DNA of 64,000 bases from Desulfovibrionaceae bacterium (GCA_016932995.1 JAFGBU010000010.1:1-64000), one strand, 5' to 3'. Counted from the first letter of the stretch, positions 23,596 through 39,009 are shown. The notes: generated by a model from the sequence alone, not told the origin. Numbers and translations are program-made.

Positions 23596-24342
23596 ATGAG
23601 CAACCACGCCCTGGCCGAGGCCGCGGCCATAATCCGCGACTGCGCGCAGGCCGTCGCCTTCACCGGCGCGGGCATCTCCGTGGAGTCGGGGATCCCGCCG
23701 TTTCGCGGCCCCGAGGGCCTGTGGACCAAGTACGACCCGGAGCTCTTCGACATCCGCCAGTTCAAGGCCCGGCCCAAGGAGTCCTGGGAGCTGATCAAGA
23801 AGCTGTTCTACGACTTCGTGGCCAAGGCCAGGCCCAATGCGGCCCACTACGCCCTGGCCGACCTGGAAAGACACGGCCGTCTGGCCTGCGTCATCACCCA
23901 GAACATCGACAACCTCCACCAGGCCGCGGGCAGCAGGCTGGTCCACGAGTACCACGGCAGCATCCGGGACCTGGTGTGCCTCAAGTGCGGGGCCAGGTTC
24001 CTGGCCGAGGCGGTCGGGCTGGACACGCTCCCCCCGCTCTGCCCGGAGTGCGGGGGCCTGCTCAAGCCGGACATCGTGTTCTTCAGCGAGCCCATACCCG
24101 ACGAGGTCAACAGGACATCCGTGCAGCAGGCACAGATGGCCGGGGCAATGATCGTCATCGGCACCACCGGCGAGGTCATGCCCGCCTCGCGCATCCCGTA
24201 CATCGCCAAGAACCGGGGCGCCAAGATCATCGAGATCAATGTCCGCGAGTCGGCCTACACGCACAGGACCACGGACATCTTTCTGGAGGGCAAGGCCTCG
24301 GTCATGACCCGGGCCCTGGCCGAGGCCGTGCTCGGGGGCTGA
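23596..24342 (+). CDS. cobB: Sir2-family NAD-dependent protein deacylase
   Basis: 248 residues. Rossmann NAD motifs FTGAGISVESGIPPFRG and TQNIDNLHQ are intact, the catalytic His lies in VHEYHGS, and four zinc cysteines are present as CLKC and CPEC. This is the bacterial CobB-like class, which removes acetyl or other acyl groups from lysines using NAD+. In studied bacteria it reactivates acetyl-CoA synthetase, but no acs gene is here. A good ribosome site (AGGAAAGG) and tight spacing put it at the end of a three-gene operon with the solute-binding protein. Confidence 0.92.
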   Translation: MSNHALAEAAAIIRDCAQAVAFTGAGISVESGIPPFRGPEGLWTKYDPELFDIRQFKARPKESWELIKKLFYDFVAKARPNAAHYALADLERHGRLACVITQNIDNLHQAAGSRLVHEYHGSIRDLVCLKCGARFLAEAVGLDTLPPLCPECGGLLKPDIVFFSEPIPDEVNRTSVQQAQMAGAMIVIGTTGEVMPASRIPYIAKNRGAKIIEINVRESAYTHRTTDIFLEGKASVMTRALAEAVLGG

Positions 24343-24362: not shown

Positions 24363-25016
24363 CTACTTGAGGGTCTTGACCAGCGCGCCGTGTTCGCGGC
24401 TGGGCTCCAGGGCGTAGACCCGGCCGGCCGAGACCGCGAACAGGTCCAGGGGATGGTGGGAGATGACCAGGACCTGGAGCCCGAGCCGCTCGGCTATCTC
24501 GGCGATGAGCTTCATGAACCTGGGCACGAGCGAGGGCTTGAGCCAGCAGTCCTGCTCGTCGAGGACCAGAAACGGCCTGTGCCTGGCCGGGTCCAGCTGG
24601 GACAGGGCGATGAGCCTCAGGCCCACGGACAGGATGTTGCACACGCTGCCGCCCTGGCCGGCATAGATGTCCTCCACCTGCTCCTCGCGGCCCTGGTTGA
24701 ATATCTGGAAGTAGACCTGGAGCCGGTTGCCCTTGACCTCGCGCTGGGAGGTCACCACCCGGTCCTGGCCGAGTATCTCCCGGATGGCGTGGGTCAGGTT
24801 GGCCTCGACCTGGTCCAGTATCTCTCCGAACAGGGCCGTGGCCAGGTCCTCCAGGGTCCCGGCCGCCAGCGGGGCCAGGTCCAGGAACCTGCGGGCCTCC
24901 AGCAGGCCGCGGCGCGCGGCCGCATGGTCCCGGACCAGGGCCGCGGCCCTGGCGGACAACAGGTCGTGCCTGCGCTCCAGTCCGCGCAGATGGTCCCGGC
25001 CGAGCTCCCGGCTCAT
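24363..25016 (-). CDS. C-terminal half of a split SbcC/Rad50-like ATPase
   Basis: 217 residues. It starts with about 45 residues of charged helix (coiled-coil end), then carries the ABC signature region YAGQGGSVCNILSVGLR (119-134), Walker B LVLDE (D153, E154) and H187 in VISHHP (H-switch). It has no Walker A: that motif is in the gene at 26266, three genes upstream in the same operon. Together they would make one complete SbcC/Rad50-type ATP cassette. Its ATG overlaps the previous stop (ATGA), so translation is coupled. It converges with the sirtuin gene (20 bases between stops). The closest match is the C-half of SMC-like repair ATPases; a stand-alone nuclease-associated ATPase cannot be excluded. 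Confidence 0.8.
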   Translation of the reverse strand: MSRELGRDHLRGLERRHDLLSARAAALVRDHAAARRGLLEARRFLDLAPLAAGTLEDLATALFGEILDQVEANLTHAIREILGQDRVVTSQREVKGNRLQVYFQIFNQGREEQVEDIYAGQGGSVCNILSVGLRLIALSQLDPARHRPFLVLDEQDCWLKPSLVPRFMKLIAEIAERLGLQVLVISHHPLDLFAVSAGRVYALEPSREHGALVKTLK

Positions 25017-25330
25017 TCGGGCTCCGCCTCCCCGGACCCGGCCTCTATGGCCGCAAGGTTCTTGCGGATGTCGTGGATGTGTTTAGAGTACTCAGATACC
25101 AGTCGTTGATTTTCCTGCCTTTTTTCCTCAAGCAGGGCTTGCAGCTTGTCGGGGTCCGAGGTGCCGTACTCGGCCCTGGCCCGGTCCTCCAGGTCCTTGA
25201 GCTGGTCCTTGAGGTTGGCCAGGTCCTGCTCGATGCGCACCTTGCGCTCCCTGAGGGAATCATACTCCCGCCTCAGCCCGGCGAGCTCCTGCTCGAGCCC
25301 CGCGTCGCCGCCCTTAGCCTTGTCCGCCAC
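25013..25330 (-). CDS. Small coiled-coil protein of the split SbcC operon
   Basis: 105 residues, GTG start after GGGAGGTGACAA. Nearly the whole length is heptad-patterned helix (LAGLRREYDSLRERK, QDLANLKDQLKDLED, KRQENQRLVSEYSKHIHD), with acidic ends. It has no cysteine and no enzymatic motif. It lies between the SbcD-like nuclease gene and the C-terminal ATPase half, overlapping both (17 bases and 4 bases). Inference: it supplies part of the missing second arm of the coiled coil that would normally run back from the zinc hook to the C-terminal ATPase half. Confidence 0.75.
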   Translation of the reverse strand: MADKAKGGDAGLEQELAGLRREYDSLRERKVRIEQDLANLKDQLKDLEDRARAEYGTSDPDKLQALLEEKRQENQRLVSEYSKHIHDIRKNLAAIEAGSGEAEPE

Positions 25331-26279
25331 TTGTCACCTCCCGGTACAGGTCCCAGATCAATTCGGTCTCCAACAGCTCCGGATTCAGGTTGGCCTTGAG
25401 AAACTGCTCCAGGCCCATGCCCTCCCGGGTCCGCCGCCAAGCCAGGCGCTCCAGGCCGAGGATGAACCCGGACTCGCCCTCGGTCTCCTGCTCCTCAGGG
25501 GGGAACTCCTGGTCCGGGAAGACCTGCTCAAAGGCCAGGTGGGGCACGACCCATTTCTCGAGCTCGGCCAGGCCCGGGGTCCAGATGGCCGCGCTCGGCT
25601 TGCGCTCCTTGGAGCGCCGGGTGAAGGTCAGCCTGGTGATGTTGCCCGGATTGGCCCAGATCGTGGACCCGGCCCGCAGGGTGGGCTGGGGCCTGTGGAT
25701 GTGGCCGTTTATGACCCAGTCCACCCCGGGGATCTCCCGGATGCGGCCGGCCCGCTCCTGGAACTCCGGGAACTGGATGTTGTGGTGGGTCAGCCAGAGC
25801 ACGAAGTCAGGGCCCGGGTCGTCGCGGTGAAACAGGCTGGGGATCGATGTCCCGTCCGGGCTGGCCCCGACAAGCGCGGTCCGGTCCTTGACCCGCAGGA
25901 CGAGCTGCGGCCCGGGCTCGGACATGAGCCTGACCACGCCGGCCGCCTCCAGCACGGCCAGGGACACGTCCCGGGTGAGCCGGGCCTGGTACTTGTCGTG
26001 GTTGCCGACCAGGACATAGGGCATGAGCTCCCCGCCGTGGGGCCCGAGCAGGTCGATCAGGTTCACGAGCATGGCGTTGGAGTTCTCGCGCGGCCAGTGG
26101 AACAGGTCGCCCAGAAACACCGGCAGCATGCCCAGGGCCTTGGCCCGCTCCAGGCAGGCCGCGATCTTGTCCATGACCTGCTCGCGGTATCCGGGCAGGC
26201 GCTGGCCCGGCGGGGTGTCGGCCAGATGCGGGTCGCCGATGAGAAAAAGGCCCTTGGCCGCGATCTCAGGAACAGACAT
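25314..26279 (-). CDS. SbcD/Mre11-like metallophosphoesterase nuclease
   Basis: 321 residues with GGGGAGG just before the ATG. Metal-binding motifs of calcineurin-like nucleases follow in order: GDPHL (D16, H18), FLGDLFH, VGNHD, LTHHN and INGHIH, giving the full two-metal site. This is the SbcD/Mre11 pattern: a dsDNA exonuclease and endonuclease that works with the SbcC/Rad50 ATPase. It overlaps the N-half gene upstream (14 bases) and the coiled-coil gene downstream (17 bases). The C-terminal region (about 230-321), which would contact the ATPase, has no recognisable SbcD capping domain. Confidence 0.85.
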   Translation of the reverse strand: MSVPEIAAKGLFLIGDPHLADTPPGQRLPGYREQVMDKIAACLERAKALGMLPVFLGDLFHWPRENSNAMLVNLIDLLGPHGGELMPYVLVGNHDKYQARLTRDVSLAVLEAAGVVRLMSEPGPQLVLRVKDRTALVGASPDGTSIPSLFHRDDPGPDFVLWLTHHNIQFPEFQERAGRIREIPGVDWVINGHIHRPQPTLRAGSTIWANPGNITRLTFTRRSKERKPSAAIWTPGLAELEKWVVPHLAFEQVFPDQEFPPEEQETEGESGFILGLERLAWRRTREGMGLEQFLKANLNPELLETELIWDLYREVTSGGQG

Positions 26280-27492
26280 GTCCCTCCCCGTCCAGAAAGC
26301 GGCCCAGGTCCATCCTGGACCCGCAGGTCGGACAGGCGCCTATCTCGGCCAGCCGCTTCTCGATCCTGCGGCGCAGGGAACCGATGTCCCGGCCGCAGGC
26401 CTCAAGCCCGGCCCCGAGCCCGGCGATCCTGCCCGCGCAGCGGGAAAGCTCAAGGGCCAGGTCCTTGAGCCGGGCGGTTTCAAAAAGGGTTGGGGCCTGT
26501 TGCAGACCGTCCAGGACGCGGTCCTGGGCCTTGAACCTGCCGAGGCCTGCGCGCAGCTCCCTGCCCGCGGCCGCGGCCTGGGCCAGGGCCGTTGTCGGAA
26601 AGAGGTCCGGCGGCGGGGCCAGGGCCTCAAGCCCGGCGCTCAGGGCCCGGGCCCGGGCCTGTTTTTTCTCCAGCCCGCGGCCCTGATCCAGTATCTGCTC
26701 CAGGGGCCTTGCGGGCCAGAGCCCGGGCGGCTCGCCAAGGCCCCGGACGGCCTTTGCGGCCTGTTGAAGTCTTTGCAGATCGGACTCCAGGTCCAGGCGC
26801 GCGCTTATCGCGGCCTCAAGCCCGGGCAGCAGGCCCTCCAGGCGGTCCAGACGGTCCCTCTGGGCATTGGCCAGCTCAAGGTCCAGGGCCAGGTCCGGCA
26901 GGCCACCGAGCCGGTCCAGGTCCCGGGCGATGTCCTCCATGCGCCGGGCGTGCGCGGCCTCATCCCTTTTGGCCTCGAGCGTCTTTCTCTTGAGCAGGTT
27001 CTGCATGGCCAGGAGGTGGACGCTCTCGGTGGAGGCGGCGAAGAACGCGGCCGCGGCCGAGGGCGGCTGGTTGAGCAGGAATACCGGCTCGCGCTGGTTG
27101 CCCAGGTGCACGTCGATCTCCTGGCCGGTTTCGAGCTCCACCGGGTCGAGCTTCAAAAGGTCGAGCACGTCCCCCGGCGGGCGGCGGCCGAACTTGGCGT
27201 ATGTCTCGGGCCCGTCCGCGCCCGGGGCCCAGACCTCGTAGATCGCGGAGGTCTTGGACCTGACCCAGGCCACGCGAAACCCGTTGTCCAGGAGGGCCTC
27301 GACCCTGGCCCTGGACGCGCCGTGGCGGATGAAGTGTTTGGGCGCGGGGTTGCTGGCCAGGCAGCGCAGGCCCTCGACCACCGCGGACTTGCCCGAGTTG
27401 TTGGGGCCGGTGAGCACGGTGAGCCCGGGCCCGAGGTCGATCTCGGTGCGCTCGTGGGCCATGAAGTTCTCAAGGACTATCCTGCTGATCAT
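26266..27492 (-). CDS. N-terminal half of a split SbcC/Rad50-like ATPase ending in a zinc hook
   Basis: 408 residues. MISRIVLENFMAHERTEIDL is the usual RecF/SbcC beginning, with Walker A GPNNSGKS (G29-S36). A Q-loop-like LLNQPPSAAAAFF follows near residue 140. Residues about 165-385 are coiled coil, rich in Leu/Arg/Ala/Asp. The protein ends with CPTCG (C387, C390) plus HVC (H405, C407): in full-length Rad50/SbcC, CPxC sits at the apex of the arm and is followed by a second arm and the Walker B half. Here the polypeptide stops just after the hook. The missing parts are encoded downstream in the same operon (25013 and 24363). Confidence 0.82.
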   Translation of the reverse strand: MISRIVLENFMAHERTEIDLGPGLTVLTGPNNSGKSAVVEGLRCLASNPAPKHFIRHGASRARVEALLDNGFRVAWVRSKTSAIYEVWAPGADGPETYAKFGRRPPGDVLDLLKLDPVELETGQEIDVHLGNQREPVFLLNQPPSAAAAFFAASTESVHLLAMQNLLKRKTLEAKRDEAAHARRMEDIARDLDRLGGLPDLALDLELANAQRDRLDRLEGLLPGLEAAISARLDLESDLQRLQQAAKAVRGLGEPPGLWPARPLEQILDQGRGLEKKQARARALSAGLEALAPPPDLFPTTALAQAAAAGRELRAGLGRFKAQDRVLDGLQQAPTLFETARLKDLALELSRCAGRIAGLGAGLEACGRDIGSLRRRIEKRLAEIGACPTCGSRMDLGRFLDGEGHVCS

Positions 27493-34266: not shown

Positions 34267-36006
34267 ATGTTTCGCATCCGGCGCATATACGACGACACCC
34301 TGCCCCTGGACCGCCAGGCCATTGCCGCGGCCCAGGCCATCCTGCGCGAGCAGTTCCAACTGCTCAGCAGCGAGGAGATCGAGGCCCTGCCCGACCTGCT
34401 GGGCGACCCCGTGGCCCACGGCTTCCGCACCATCCTGTTCGTGGCCGATGCGCGCGGCAAGATCCAGGGCTTCGCCCTGCTCATGCACTTCCCGGACCTG
34501 CGCTTCTGCTACCTGGACTTTTTGTCCGTGCCCAAGGCCATGACCAGCCGGGGCACGGGCGGGGTGCTCTACGAACGGGTGCGCCAGGAGGCCCGGGACC
34601 TGAAGTCCCCGGGCCTGTTCTTCGAGTGCCTGCCCGACGACCCAGCGCTGTGCGCGGATCCGGCCGTGCTGGCCGCCAACCGGGCGCGGCTGCGCTTCTA
34701 CGAGCGGTACGGGGCCCGGCCCGTGGTGGGCACGGCCTACGAGACCCCGCTCAAGCCGGGCGGGGACTGTCCGCCGTACCTGGTCCTCGACCCCCTGGAC
34801 AGCCTCAGGCCCCTGGCCGGGAGACGGGCGCGGGCCATAGTCCGGGCCGTGCTGGAGCGCAAATACCGCGGGGTCTGCCCCCCGGAATACGTGGACATGG
34901 TCGTGCGCTCGTTCCGCGACGGGCCCGTGCGCCTGCGGCCGCCGCGCTACCTGGAGCCGCGGCCCGAGCCCCTGCCCAGGCGCGCCGTGGGCCCGGACCA
35001 GCGCATCGCCCTGGTGGTCAACGACCGCCACGACATCCACCACATGCATGAGCGCGGCTACGTGCAGGCCCCGGTGCGCGTGGACCGCATCCTGGAGCAG
35101 CTGCGGCGCACCGGGCTGTTCGAGGACCTCCCGGCCCGGCGCTTTCCGGACGCCCGCATCAAGGCCGTGCACGACGCGGACTACGTGGACTACCTGAAGC
35201 GGGTCTCCCTGCGCATCCCGGAGGGCCGCTCGGTCTACCCGTACGTCTTTCCCATCCGCAACCAGGCCAAGCCGCCCCGGGAGCTGCCGGTGCGCGCCGG
35301 GTACTACTGCATCGACACCTTCACCCCGCTGAACCCCAGCGCCTGGAAGGCGGCGCGCCGGGCCGCGGACTGCGCCCTGACCGCGGCCTCGGCCGTGGCC
35401 TCGGGCCAGCGCCTGGCCTACGCCCTGGTCAGGCCGCCGGGGCACCACGCCGAACGCAGGTCCTTCGGCGGGTTCTGCTACCTGAACAACGCGGCCCTGG
35501 CCGCCCAGACACTCTCGGCCCTGGGCCGGGTGGCGGTGCTCGACCTGGACTTTCACCACGGAAACGGCACCCAGAACATCTTCTACTCCCGCTGCGACGT
35601 GCTCACCGTGTCCATCCACGGCCACCCCAGCTTCGCCTATCCCTATTTCAGCGGCTTCCGCGACGAGCGCGGGGAGGGCGCGGGCCTGGGCTTCAACCGC
35701 AACTTTCCCCTCCAGGAAGGGGTGGACGGCCACATGTACCGCAACGTCCTGGCCCGGGCCCTGGGGGAGGTCCAGACCTTCGGCCCGAGCTTCCTGGTCC
35801 TGGCCCTGGGCCTGGACCCGGCCAAGGGCGATCCCACGGGCACCTGGTCCCTGGGCGCGCGCGACTTCCTGGCCAACGGCCGGATGGTCGGGGAGCTGGG
35901 CCGGCCCACGGTGGTGGTTCAGGAGGGCGGCTACCGCATCCGCTCCCTGGGGACCAACGCCCGACACTTTTTCCAGGGCCTTTGGCAAGGGGCCTTCGGG
36001 CGCTGA
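34267..36006 (+). CDS. GNAT acetyltransferase fused to a histone-deacetylase-family amidohydrolase
   Basis: 579 residues. The N-terminal part (about 1-160) has a GNAT pattern: FRTILFVADARGKIQGFALLMHF, then FLSVPKAMTSRGTGGVLYERVR, whose RGTGG is the acetyl-CoA loop. A linker of about 100 residues follows. The C-terminal part (about 250-575) is a class II-like HDAC: MHERGY, the catalytic pair H393-H394 in RPPGHHAE, zinc ligands D428 and H430 in DLDFHHGNG, a third aspartate in LGLDP, and QEGGYR near the end. Prokaryotic HDACs act on acetylpolyamines, acetoin-related or protein substrates. One protein with both acetylating and deacetylating domains is unusual. It lies between the tRNA-Glu gene and the diverged copy of its 3' end. 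Confidence 0.85.
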   Translation: MFRIRRIYDDTLPLDRQAIAAAQAILREQFQLLSSEEIEALPDLLGDPVAHGFRTILFVADARGKIQGFALLMHFPDLRFCYLDFLSVPKAMTSRGTGGVLYERVRQEARDLKSPGLFFECLPDDPALCADPAVLAANRARLRFYERYGARPVVGTAYETPLKPGGDCPPYLVLDPLDSLRPLAGRRARAIVRAVLERKYRGVCPPEYVDMVVRSFRDGPVRLRPPRYLEPRPEPLPRRAVGPDQRIALVVNDRHDIHHMHERGYVQAPVRVDRILEQLRRTGLFEDLPARRFPDARIKAVHDADYVDYLKRVSLRIPEGRSVYPYVFPIRNQAKPPRELPVRAGYYCIDTFTPLNPSAWKAARRAADCALTAASAVASGQRLAYALVRPPGHHAERRSFGGFCYLNNAALAAQTLSALGRVAVLDLDFHHGNGTQNIFYSRCDVLTVSIHGHPSFAYPYFSGFRDERGEGAGLGFNRNFPLQEGVDGHMYRNVLARALGEVQTFGPSFLVLALGLDPAKGDPTGTWSLGARDFLANGRMVGELGRPTVVVQEGGYRIRSLGTNARHFFQGLWQGAFGR

Positions 36007-36040
36007 ACCGGGCCGCCGCGGGCAAGCCTCTCCGGCCGCT

Positions 36041-36120
36041 AACAGGGCTCAACTCCCCCTGGGGAGGCCAAGTTTATTCAAGGGGTCAGGACAAAGTCCT
36101 GACCCCTTTTTTGTGGTTGG
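36041..36120 (+). repeat. Diverged copy of the tRNA-Glu 3' end and its terminator (att-like)
   Basis: Colinear with 34106-34186 across about 80 bases. Shared blocks include TCCCCCTGGGGA then GCCAAG, ATTCAA, GGGTCAGGAC, GTCCTG and CCCTTTTTT. Identity is roughly 80% by eye. Only the T-arm/acceptor 3' part of the tRNA is present, so this is not a working tRNA. Such partial duplication is what integration of an element at a tRNA 3' end leaves behind. No integrase gene is in the window. Confidence 0.8.
36080..36112 (+). terminator. Perfect intrinsic terminator in the att-like copy
   Basis: AGGGGTCAGGAC-AAA-GTCCTGACCCCT is a perfect twelve-pair stem followed by T residues. It ends the GNAT-HDAC gene (74 bases after the stop) and matches the tRNA terminator at 34147. 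Confidence 0.9.
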
Positions 36121-36205
36121 GCGCTGGGGCGGGGGAAAACTTTTTTATTATGGAGTTTCAGGATGTTGGCTAAAAAATTGATGCCGCCCCGTAAAACTTA
36201 AGCAT

Positions 36206-37690
36206 TCAACTACCCTGAGGCAATAATTTTGCAAAAGGCCCTACTATAGTGTCAACCTCATCCGGATAGTATTGTGTCCAGATGTAAATGAACGCATCGC
36301 GCACAGAGTCTTCAGCCAAAAATCCAACTTTTTCACCAATCTGGGAATAAAGGAGGTGGGGGTCTCTGTTAGTTCGCCTTGTCTCTTCGACTACCTGCTT
36401 AACCATGTCCTGTTCTTTAAAATCCCTCAATAAAATAACTGACAGCTGCCCCTTGCACTCAGATATCTTATCCATCACCTTGTCATAAATATAGGTTTCT
36501 GGTGACTCACCGGGCAATCTAAATACTTTATCTTCAGCTGAATCAGATTCCTGAGAATCACCATCAATGATACAAATTGACGGATATTTTGATGTTGGGT
36601 CAGAGTTGTGGAAGGTATTAATTTTAACAGCAGACCCATCACCATACATTGGGTGTATTTCAATTGATTCTAAAAGCTCACTATTCTTTTTCTTTAAAAT
36701 ACCACGAATCCATGCTTTGGCAAAATCATCCTCCACAAAGATAGCCAAACCAGTGTCAACTTCGCCTGTAATTGTTCTAATGGCATGAATGTTCAACTTG
36801 CCTTGTACCAGGGTCCCGTCAATACATGCCCATATAGCACAGTCTGGCAACGGAACTAATGCATCGTTAGAATGTGTAGTAAACACTACTTGTGTTTTTT
36901 TTCTTTTTGAAAGATCTATCAAATACTCAACTACCCTAATTGTAGCAACAGGATGCAGTCCATTTTCTATTTCCTCAATCAATACAAGACTATTATCTTC
37001 TATGTTTTCTAGCAGCATAAGCATTCGTATTATGCTTGATTCTCCAGCACCAAAATGAAATTCCGAATAACGCGAGCCATTATGATTTCCGGATAATAAT
37101 GAAATTTTGCCTCTCTGATCTATTTGAAGACTAGCGAAGTTTGATATGTCTTTTCCAAGAATTTTTTCTACATTATTTTTTACATTATTCTCGAGTGAAA
37201 AAATGTCATTTTCATTGAATGCAAACGATGGTGATGCGCACTTTTTGAGCTCAATTCGCTCATTAGCAGGAACAGTTCTTGACACACCAAAAAACACACA
37301 GTCCCTTTCCAGTGCCCCTCTTTTCCATCTATAGCTTTTATAGCTTGCTGTACGCCTAATAGTATCATCAGTTTTTATATTTTTATCAATAAGAGTATAC
37401 TCTATTTTCCAGTTCTGCATTGCTTCATCGAGTTTGCCACTTTTTGCAAAAAACTGGTTTGGTTTAATATCTTTATATATACACCCTGAAGCCCCAAGTA
37501 CTGTTGTTTTTCCACCTCCATTAGAGCCAATTAAGGCTGTTACAGGGAAATCAAAATTGATTGCCTGGCCATTAAGCATTCTTAATGCGTGAAACCTAAT
37601 TTTTTTAAGGTATTGTTCGTAGTTGTTGTTGGCAACTTTTTCAATTAATTCATTCTTGGTGCTGTCTCGTATTTCACTGCGGTAAGCCAT
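36206..37690 (-). CDS. OLD-like ATPase with C-terminal TOPRIM domain (candidate phage-defence protein)
   Basis: 494 residues, with GAGGG just before the ATG. Unlike its neighbours the gene is AT-rich, with A/T third positions. Residues 30-280 form an ABC/AAA_21-type ATPase: Walker A GSNGGGKT (55-62), signature-like FGAGESS (213-219), Walker B LVLIEEIENGLHP (235-247) and H273 in TTHS. Residues about 315-490 look like a TOPRIM domain: FVEDD (E320) and IIDGDS (D376, D378), the acidic set that binds metal in OLD-family nucleases. The ATPase-TOPRIM order is that of OLD and GajA. OLD-like proteins act as antiviral nucleases. No partner gene (UvrD-type helicase, reverse transcriptase) is adjacent, so it would be a class 1, stand-alone OLD. 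Confidence 0.78.
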   Translation of the reverse strand: MAYRSEIRDSTKNELIEKVANNNYEQYLKKIRFHALRMLNGQAINFDFPVTALIGSNGGGKTTVLGASGCIYKDIKPNQFFAKSGKLDEAMQNWKIEYTLIDKNIKTDDTIRRTASYKSYRWKRGALERDCVFFGVSRTVPANERIELKKCASPSFAFNENDIFSLENNVKNNVEKILGKDISNFASLQIDQRGKISLLSGNHNGSRYSEFHFGAGESSIIRMLMLLENIEDNSLVLIEEIENGLHPVATIRVVEYLIDLSKRKKTQVVFTTHSNDALVPLPDCAIWACIDGTLVQGKLNIHAIRTITGEVDTGLAIFVEDDFAKAWIRGILKKKNSELLESIEIHPMYGDGSAVKINTFHNSDPTSKYPSICIIDGDSQESDSAEDKVFRLPGESPETYIYDKVMDKISECKGQLSVILLRDFKEQDMVKQVVEETRRTNRDPHLLYSQIGEKVGFLAEDSVRDAFIYIWTQYYPDEVDTIVGPFAKLLPQGS

Positions 37691-37743
37691 GTCGACCCTC
37701 GTTTTAATTTAGACACTAATCCCAAAATTTGTAAATTTAATAT

Positions 37744-37773
37744 ATAATTAATTTTAGTACATAGTCTAGTCAA
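37744..37773 (-). promoter_or_regulatory. Candidate promoter for the OLD-like gene
   Basis: On the minus strand TTGACT (37773-37768), an 18-base spacer, then AATTAT (37749-37744), inside very AT-rich DNA about 55 bases before the start. Confidence 0.45.
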
Positions 37774-37935
37774 CAAAATGGAGTGACTGAAAGGAACTTT
37801 ATTTTGAATTCTGGCCGGACCGCTCTCAAATCAACTCTCCCAAATCGCACTCAAGGACGCGGGACATGGCAAATATTCCCCCCTGCCCTGGGGCGTTCAG
37901 CATCCAAGATATCGCCCCCCATCACCTGACGCCGG

Positions 37936-39009
37936 TCATGGCGCTGGTTGCGGGATCGGCCGGCCAAACACCGTGTATATCCTCTCGATCTCCCCCAAGA
38001 CAAAATCCGCCAGCCTTTGCTGGTTCGCCCGCGCCGTCGGGTCACTGGCGCCGTGGTCGCCAATGACCAGGATGTTCTCGTCGTTCAGCAGGTTCGCAGG
38101 GCCCGTGTAGTTGAAGCTGCCCGCAATGATCACCTGCCGGTCAATGACCATCAGCTTGTGGTGCAGCTTGCCCACCGGGGCCTTGTTCGGCACCTGCCTG
38201 ATGTCGATGTTCGTCTGGTTGAGGAGATGCTTTGAGGCCGCCCACTTCTGGTTGGCCTGCTTGGCGTCGAGATTGCCCTTGATCTTGATGTCGGCCCTGG
38301 CGGCCAGAAGCATCTGGTCGTCAATGGCCGAGGACTCCGCAAAGGTGAAGATGGCGAAGTCGATCCGCTCCCGGGCCTTTGCCATCTGCTTGGCGATCTC
38401 CATTTCCGGGTCATGGTCGGGGGCGAAGAGCACCTTGATCGGCACGCCGGACACGATCTCGACTTTCGGCTTGCGGTCATGGCCTTCGTTGAGCCTGCCG
38501 AAGTGCCCCTGTTGGATTTCCCGATACTCGCGGCCGTAGATCTTGGCGATCTTTTCGTCGTGGATGACGATGACGTGGTTCAGGTTCCTGCTGACGCCGG
38601 TCGTGGTGAAGTTGGTCGAGCCCGTCAACAGGGACTTCCCGTCGCGGATGATGAACTTCTGGTGGAATATCTTGGGGTTGAAGTCCGAGTTGACCTTGAT
38701 GGCGGAGCGAAGGATGGCGTCGTGGAGCTGGCGGTTGAGCTCATTGGTCCCTTGCTGCTCAAAAGGGTCCGGCCGGAACTTCGGCACGGTCAGGTAGTCG
38801 GCTTCGAGCACGACGCGGACCTTGACCCCGCCCTGCTTGGCGCGGATTATCGCCCCGGCGATCTCCCTGCTGTCGATCTCCTGCACGGCGATATCAAGGC
38901 TTTTGCGCGCACCGTCTATGAAGCCGACAATGGTCTTGAGGAGGTCGTCGGGCGCGCCGGCCTGCTGCGGCCCCATGTGGATTTCTATGTTTTCTACCTG
39001 CACGGCCAT
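37936..39009 (-). CDS. Phospholipase-D-superfamily nuclease-like protein
   Basis: 357 residues from the ATG at 39009 (AAGGAGG nine bases upstream); the frame runs further back without a ribosome site. Two HKD motifs are complete: HQKFIIRDGKSLLTGSTNF and HHKLMVIDRQVIIAGSFNY, so the two halves can build one active site. No signal peptide is seen, so it is predicted cytoplasmic; cytoplasmic PLD proteins are often nucleases (Nuc, BfiI-like) rather than lipases. Base use is intermediate between the AT-rich OLD-like gene and the host genes. It lies upstream of the OLD-like gene on the same strand (245 bases). A defensive role is possible from location only. Confidence 0.83.
   Translation of the reverse strand: MAVQVENIEIHMGPQQAGAPDDLLKTIVGFIDGARKSLDIAVQEIDSREIAGAIIRAKQGGVKVRVVLEADYLTVPKFRPDPFEQQGTNELNRQLHDAILRSAIKVNSDFNPKIFHQKFIIRDGKSLLTGSTNFTTTGVSRNLNHVIVIHDEKIAKIYGREYREIQQGHFGRLNEGHDRKPKVEIVSGVPIKVLFAPDHDPEMEIAKQMAKARERIDFAIFTFAESSAIDDQMLLAARADIKIKGNLDAKQANQKWAASKHLLNQTNIDIRQVPNKAPVGKLHHKLMVIDRQVIIAGSFNYTGPANLLNDENILVIGDHGASDPTARANQQRLADFVLGEIERIYTVFGRPIPQPAP

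Follow-up and report, generated by a model that had tools for sequence, protein, structure and literature searches.

Mre11 and Rad50 together form a two-protein machine that processes DNA ends in nearly all cells that have been studied. Rad50 is regarded as one continuous chain, folded so that a long coiled-coil arm, with a zinc hook at its centre, brings its two ends together; how this arm and hook influence an ATPase head that lies far away has long been a question. In phage T4, the corresponding protein, gp46, is likewise a single chain with ABC motifs at both ends, and phage SbcCD genes have been reported that lie apart but are whole (PMC5105663). Mimivirus-type fusions of Mre11 with Rad50 have also been described, and a fusion in Bacillus phage 0305phi8-36 was reported to be without one ATPase segment (PMC3175470). 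We found no description of a split Rad50/SbcC in the open PMC papers that we searched, in line with the initial annotation of the locus considered here, which knew of no account of its four-gene arrangement.

The four genes and their ATPase and nuclease motifs

The window (the whole 64,000-nucleotide stretch of a Desulfovibrionaceae genome that we analyzed) carries on its minus strand four consecutive, overlapping genes in the order N-D-CC-C. The first, N (26266..27492, 408 aa), encodes a Rad50-like N half that consists of an ABC N-lobe, a modular arm and a terminal CPTCG, and it matches Pfam AAA_23 (9e-11) and phrog_16465 (8e-27). D (25314..26279, 321 aa) encodes an Mre11/SbcD-like nuclease, whose Pfam match is the calcineurin-like phosphoesterase family (Metallophos, 4e-8). 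CC (25013..25330, 105 aa, with a GTG start) encodes a small helical protein, and C (24363..25016, 217 aa) a Rad50-like C half. Shine-Dalgarno-like purine runs are located inside the upstream genes, i.e., gggaggga before D, ggaggtga before CC and ggagg before C. The initial annotation had proposed overlaps of 14, 17 and 4 bases (N/D, D/CC and CC/C, respectively), with an SbcD-like nuclease gene and a 105-residue gene between the two ATPase halves. The same overlaps were obtained when we re-read the ORFs, and D, with its Mre11-type motifs, and CC are indeed located there.

The N half contains the Walker A motif previously noted in it, GPNNSGKS (27385..27408, minus strand; residues 29-36), of which G29, N31, N32, G34, K35 and S36 are invariant in 56 aligned homologues, as is Q133. 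P-loop models of the AAA_23/SMC type match N over the head only. In its AF2 model (mean pLDDT 82, pTM 0.39), the stretch between the head and the hook consists of several helices, and proline linkers interrupt each of them; because of the low pTM, the arrangement of these helices is uncertain. A structure search identifies the head of the model as an N-lobe of the SMC/Rad50/RecF type (Z 10-13), e.g., with SMC 1xex_A (Z 12.7, rmsd 3.1, 135 aligned) and Rad50 1f2u_A (Z 10.6, rmsd 3.2, 131 aligned). SMC, RecF and Rad50 score near one another as matches to this head.

The C half was also read correctly at the outset as having a signature motif and Walker B without Walker A. Its signature motif, GQGGSV (24642..24659; residues 120-125), Walker B motif, FLVLDE (24555..24572; residues 149-154), and H-loop histidines, within ISHH (24453..24458; residues 187-188), all lie on the minus strand, and we looked for a Walker A motif in C and found it absent. 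Among 73 homologues, the invariant residues are G120, G122, G123 and V125 of the signature, L152, D153 and E154 of Walker B, and H187 and H188, together with residues in the D-loop region. C matches only the end of the SMC/AAA_21 models, and among solved structures it has no close sequence relative beyond weak SMC/ABC matches. In its AF2 model (mean pLDDT 88), a helix of 80 residues leads into an ABC C-lobe, and the best structural match is Rad50 1f2u_B (Z 12.6, rmsd 2.9, 142 aligned). The models of C and of the N head thus both have the ABC-lobe folds of Mre11-Rad50.

Taken across N plus C, every ABC motif (Walker A, Q-loop, signature, Walker B, D-loop and H-loop) is present once and is invariant. 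Two ABC lobes in one polypeptide with a mid-chain hook were not found, C being a separate gene in all loci, and scores stay far below the cut-offs of the Rad50/SbcC equivalog models (the best Rad50 model gives 30.9 bits, where the cut-off is 1000).

D has the active site of an Mre11/SbcD-type phosphoesterase. Its motifs GDPH, GDLF, GNHD and GHIH retain every Mre11-type metal ligand motif, and residues D16, H18, D58, N93, H94, H165, H193 and H195 are invariant among the D homologues. The D profile matches the SbcD/Mre11 chains 4o24, 2q8u and 3qg5. Two genomes each have a D-like gene, about 300 aa long, that stands alone with no N, CC or C adjoining. The matches to these solo genes stop near D residue 257, which may mean that the final 60 residues of D serve as a contact with the ATPase.

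Occurrence in bacteria and phages, and relation to SbcCD

Eight further genera of the family have homologues of all four genes, arranged in the same order and roughly 40-68% identical. The 39 related genomes that were examined include 23 from the family; C occurs at 60% identity or more, once per genome, in 10 of these 23, one of which is the genome of the window. N-D-CC-C lie on one strand in the eight loci that were read out in full. A search of a one-genome-per-species collection with the C profile gave 124 relatives, of which 80 were kept. In most of these 80 loci, amounting to nearly all whose contig is long enough, the N, D, CC and C profiles match four consecutive ORFs in order. The loci belong to Desulfobacterota (Desulfovibrionaceae, Syntrophobacteraceae/Desulfacinum, Desulfobacca and Desulfobacterales), to Planctomycetota (Thalassoglobus neptunius, Rhodopirellula rubra and Gimesia) and to Bacillota. 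Some planctomycetal loci have C alone beside unrecognised neighbours, and in two loci a CPBP-protease-like membrane gene is present at the CC/C junction. In all three phyla the genes of the set overlap or nearly abut. Overlaps of 4-29 bases between N and D and between D and CC are seen repeatedly in different phyla; CC and C are joined less tightly. The gene order is therefore conserved rather than randomly lost in relatives, a check that the initial annotation had named. A chance arrangement is excluded by the same-order homologues in the eight further genera and by the presence of the overlaps in several phyla. Five neighbours were examined as well; upstream of N, many Desulfovibrionaceae have murJ and a trmN6-like methyltransferase gene, and because these neighbours recur, the split set is a stable chromosomal locus in this family.

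These data also bear on a simpler account of the operon. A protein that is normally a single chain is here coded in pieces, as would be expected of an sbcC gene that is broken, decayed, frameshifted or mis-sequenced. However, the motifs are invariant, and the identical split, order and overlaps are kept in three phyla as well as in phages, so we rule this account out with near certainty.

The phage examples vary in layout. In Microcystis phage Mvi-JY20, all four genes are present and overlap, as in the window; they encode an N of 332 aa with CSQC near its end, a D of 319 aa, a CC of 94 aa and a C of 205 aa. In jumbo phages the N-D-CC-C order is found with intervening genes: an uncultured phage of 485 kb has the four genes in order over 8 kb, with a sliding-clamp-like gene between CC and C, and a relative of this phage has the same arrangement. 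N, CC and C are also present, in a different layout, in Bacillus phage vB_BboS-125 and 26 further viral or proviral contigs (27 in total); two such contigs were read out further, and both have D about 1 kb downstream of C. Microbacterium phage Magritte has N, C and an MRE11 gene at scattered positions. The viral contigs were found with the C proteins of B125 and of the jumbo phage as queries, and none was found with profile A4 or with the C protein of Mvi-JY20. Among the PHROG families, 16465, which matches N, is annotated as an exonuclease, and 15167, which matches C (3e-7), as an ATPase. Because phages carry the split set too, the split is older than any single bacterial family.

The initial annotation had recognised that a full-length sbcC elsewhere in the genome would speak against a machine made from pieces. 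The genome that contains the window (2.48 Mb in 49 contigs, 99.5% complete) has no whole sbcC that could be found with TIGR00618, PF13558, PF13476 and PF00149. The sbcC model, TIGR00618, scores at best 18.6 bits in the whole genome, at a place other than the operon, and there is no match to PF13558 or to TIGR00619. Among the relatives, TIGR00619 matches 1 of 10 split genomes versus 26 of 29 others (Fisher p 9e-6, ignoring shared ancestry), and in the phylum set it matches 1 of 14 split genomes versus 164 of 283 others (Fisher p 1.6e-4, again ignoring shared ancestry). The single match among the split genomes is a 264-residue frame at 3e-6 in the former set, and in the latter it is a match at 4e-5 in a genome listed separately. 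Four families contain both split and non-split members. At locus L129, from a relative that does not have the split set, an SbcD-like gene (469 aa) adjoins a YhaN/SbcC-like gene (1434 aa). Because nearly all split genomes are without an SbcD/YhaO match and most other relatives have one, the split set probably replaces ordinary SbcCD in its hosts.

The presence of relatives in phages and prophages, together with a patchy occurrence within the phylum (14 of 297 genomes), could also mean that the module functions mainly in anti-phage defence, or as a nuclease of mobile elements, and not in housekeeping repair. The pairing of an SMC-like ATPase with a nuclease is a common theme in defence systems. 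However, PADLOC gave no specific defence match for the four genes, only generic ATPase matches over P-loop/Walker A or Walker B stretches, and none for D. The chromosomal synteny with murJ and the trmN6-like gene, as well as the mutual exclusion with SbcD/YhaO, are likewise at odds with a primary role in defence, which we therefore regard as improbable.

The modular arm, the terminal hook and the CC protein

In the window, the arm of N extends over residues 157-386 (26335..27024, minus strand), and its 230 residues place it in the shortest of several length classes. Counted between residue 157 and the first of the two hook cysteines, arm lengths are 230, 268/269, 306-311, 346/347 and 386 residues, with few exceptions (316 and 355), so that the length is approximately 230 + 39k. 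Self-identity along the arm peaks at a lag of 39 (0.218 versus a mean of 0.092, sd 0.02), and a single-chain YhaN-like control has no peak. The phage N arms peak at a lag of 47 rather than 39 (0.142 versus 0.080, sd 0.015). On a quick tree of D and C, the length class of the N arm has changed at least 19 times.

The arm leads into the hook, CPTC (C387 and C390; 26323..26334, minus strand), followed by an 18-residue tail that ends in HVCS. The initial annotation had pointed to CPTCG plus HVC at this end. Both are present here, and the two cysteines of the CxxC zinc-hook motif are invariant in 56 homologues (zinc binding itself being putative), but the exact HVC is not conserved, and what recurs is a tail enriched in histidine and cysteine. 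We therefore rejected a four-ligand zinc finger formed with HVC as such. The histidine enrichment persists: histidine makes up 8.5% of N tails versus 2.3% of the N body, and still 5.7% once codons that overlap the start of D are left out. Phage N tails, e.g., CPLCESPMSFEHSH and CPLCDQPHTGGGC, follow the same trend.

In 66 of 67 bacterial loci, N ends 14-43 residues beyond the CxxC; the exception has no CxxC near its end. Because the chain stops so soon after this motif, usually in a histidine-rich tail, the CxxC together with two histidines or cysteines might make up a full zinc site in cis, which would differ from the hook of Rad50 in not being shared. Several tails have no histidine or cysteine at all, so a hook made by two chains at this terminus is equally possible. 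The earlier idea that a terminal hook is used differently from that of Rad50 is possible, and the histidine-rich tails lend it some support.

The CC protein is part of the set, since it is kept even where the gene order differs, in phages; its homologue adjoins C in most loci and in phages. Two helices are predicted in it, on either side of a conserved YGTSDP break (25151-25168, minus strand). One reading is that CC supplies the distal part that the descending arm would otherwise lack, such that CC plus C would form a full second strand along the whole N arm. The gene order places CC between the hook and C, as in the descending arm of a whole Rad50, and CC is helical and accompanies C. Against this, the lengths of CC (107 +/- 5 residues) and of the C helix (85 +/- 6) are constant while the N arm steps from 230 to 386 residues. 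Helices are predicted in N, CC and C, and the arm lengths of N and of CC plus C do not match. Because the arm grows in 39-residue steps and CC and the C helix do not, it is unlikely that CC plus C form a two-stranded coiled coil with the N arm over its whole length; at best, CC would pair with a fixed part of the arm. We accordingly consider the descending-arm reading unlikely. A second reading is that CC is a regulatory or bridging subunit outside the arm, e.g., one that links D to the coil base or one complex to another. The two predicted helices around the YGTSDP break, the constant length, and a gene that adjoins D or C at differing places in different phages are consistent with such a role, whose prospects we judge from these sequences to fall just short of even.

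Proposed function and comparison with known systems

We consider it likely that the four genes encode one ATP-driven DNA-end nuclease of the Mre11-Rad50 (SbcCD) type, composed of four polypeptides and doing the job of SbcCD or YhaNO. The initial annotation had suggested a Rad50-Mre11-like machine assembled from pieces, with the small protein as part of the second arm. The machine is well supported by the motifs, the folds, the conserved gene order and the lack of a whole sbcC, but the place of CC in the second arm is not established, given the lengths discussed above.

From these observations we infer how the proteins would assemble and how ATP would gate the nuclease. N, with Walker A and the Q-loop, and C, with the signature, Walker B and the D- and H-loops, would fold into one ABC head. 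Two N-C heads would then close on ATP over DNA, as expected because of the established Rad50 mechanism and the distribution of the motifs. D, as an Mre11-type nuclease, would be docked near the base of the coil and cut DNA, and CC would be an obligate accessory helical partner. The N arm would be a rod of repeated 39-residue modules, each a helix plus a proline linker, with the CxxC as a putative zinc site at the free C-terminus.

More tentatively, and with rather more doubt than confidence, the set could represent a different design of Rad50. In such a design, the head would be made by N and C, the rod would be a single modular chain that varies in 39-residue steps, zinc would be bound in cis by the CxxC and the His/Cys tail, the tip would not join complexes in the manner of the Rad50 hook, and CC would act as a clamp or bridge.

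The four-gene set amounts to a natural Rad50 that is cut at the hook, with separate halves and arms that differ by whole modules, and it offers a ready-made means of varying arm length and hook while the head is left as it is. A further consequence is that whole sets of bacteria scored as having no SbcCD probably have a split form that searches for the single protein miss.

Compared with SbcCD and Mre11-Rad50 (of the COG0419/COG0420 type), the split set has in common the ABC head motifs, the Mre11-type nuclease, the CxxC hook, the folds of both halves and the linkage of the genes. It differs in having Rad50 divided among separate chains, a hook that sits at a free C-terminus, the CC protein as an addition, and an arm built of 39-residue modules broken by prolines. 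The YhaN-YhaO-like pair, as in L129, seems to fill the same slot in relatives without the split set, but its YhaN-like ATPase is a single chain without the 39-residue periodicity. Phage T4 gp46/gp47 and other phage SbcCD proteins are likewise a phage-encoded Rad50/Mre11 pair. The Mre11/Rad50 fusions also represent an unusual architecture of the same machine, although a fusion is the opposite of a split, and PMC3175470 does not describe the other ATPase segment or a CC gene. PHROG 16465 and 15167, finally, hold the phage halves separately, without linking them as two halves of one Rad50 and without a mechanism, whereas we propose that these halves belong to one ATPase.

Loci with a single recognised part

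Among the loci read out around homologues, six from Planctomycetota (L088, L091, L093, L094, L100 and L110) have C, the Rad50-like C half, as the only part recognised by our profiles of N, D, CC and C. Two of these loci (L088, L100) are short or truncated, but at L093 and L110 these profiles did not find N, D or CC in the 5 kb upstream. Genes resembling the nuclease D also stand alone (L126:5115-6029 and L127:4843-5748), lacking the last ~60 residues, with N, CC and C absent nearby.

Genes within and beside the set

A gene for a CPBP-protease-like membrane protein sits between CC and C in L032 and, as L072:4102-4974, in L072. In jumbo phages, CC is separated from C by a sliding-clamp-like gene (L131:9124-10257 and L160:7895-9013). 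An AP2-domain gene, perhaps a homing insertion, separates N from CC in Bacillus phage vB_BboS-125 (L040:6410-6982).

A Sir2-like gene (window 23596-24342, plus strand) is convergent with C, and such a gene also adjoins the operon in L054, L059/L033 and L056. Elsewhere, a low-GC island (window 36001-38000; 41% versus about 66%) holds a 500-aa AAA ATPase frame, adjoined by a PLD-like nuclease frame; the island is possibly a mobile or defence insertion.

Modules of the N arm

The N arm (window 26335-27024, minus strand) and the homologues compared with it are built of 39-residue modules, and among these homologues arm length differs between species by whole modules. The modules of its phage relatives are 47 residues long.
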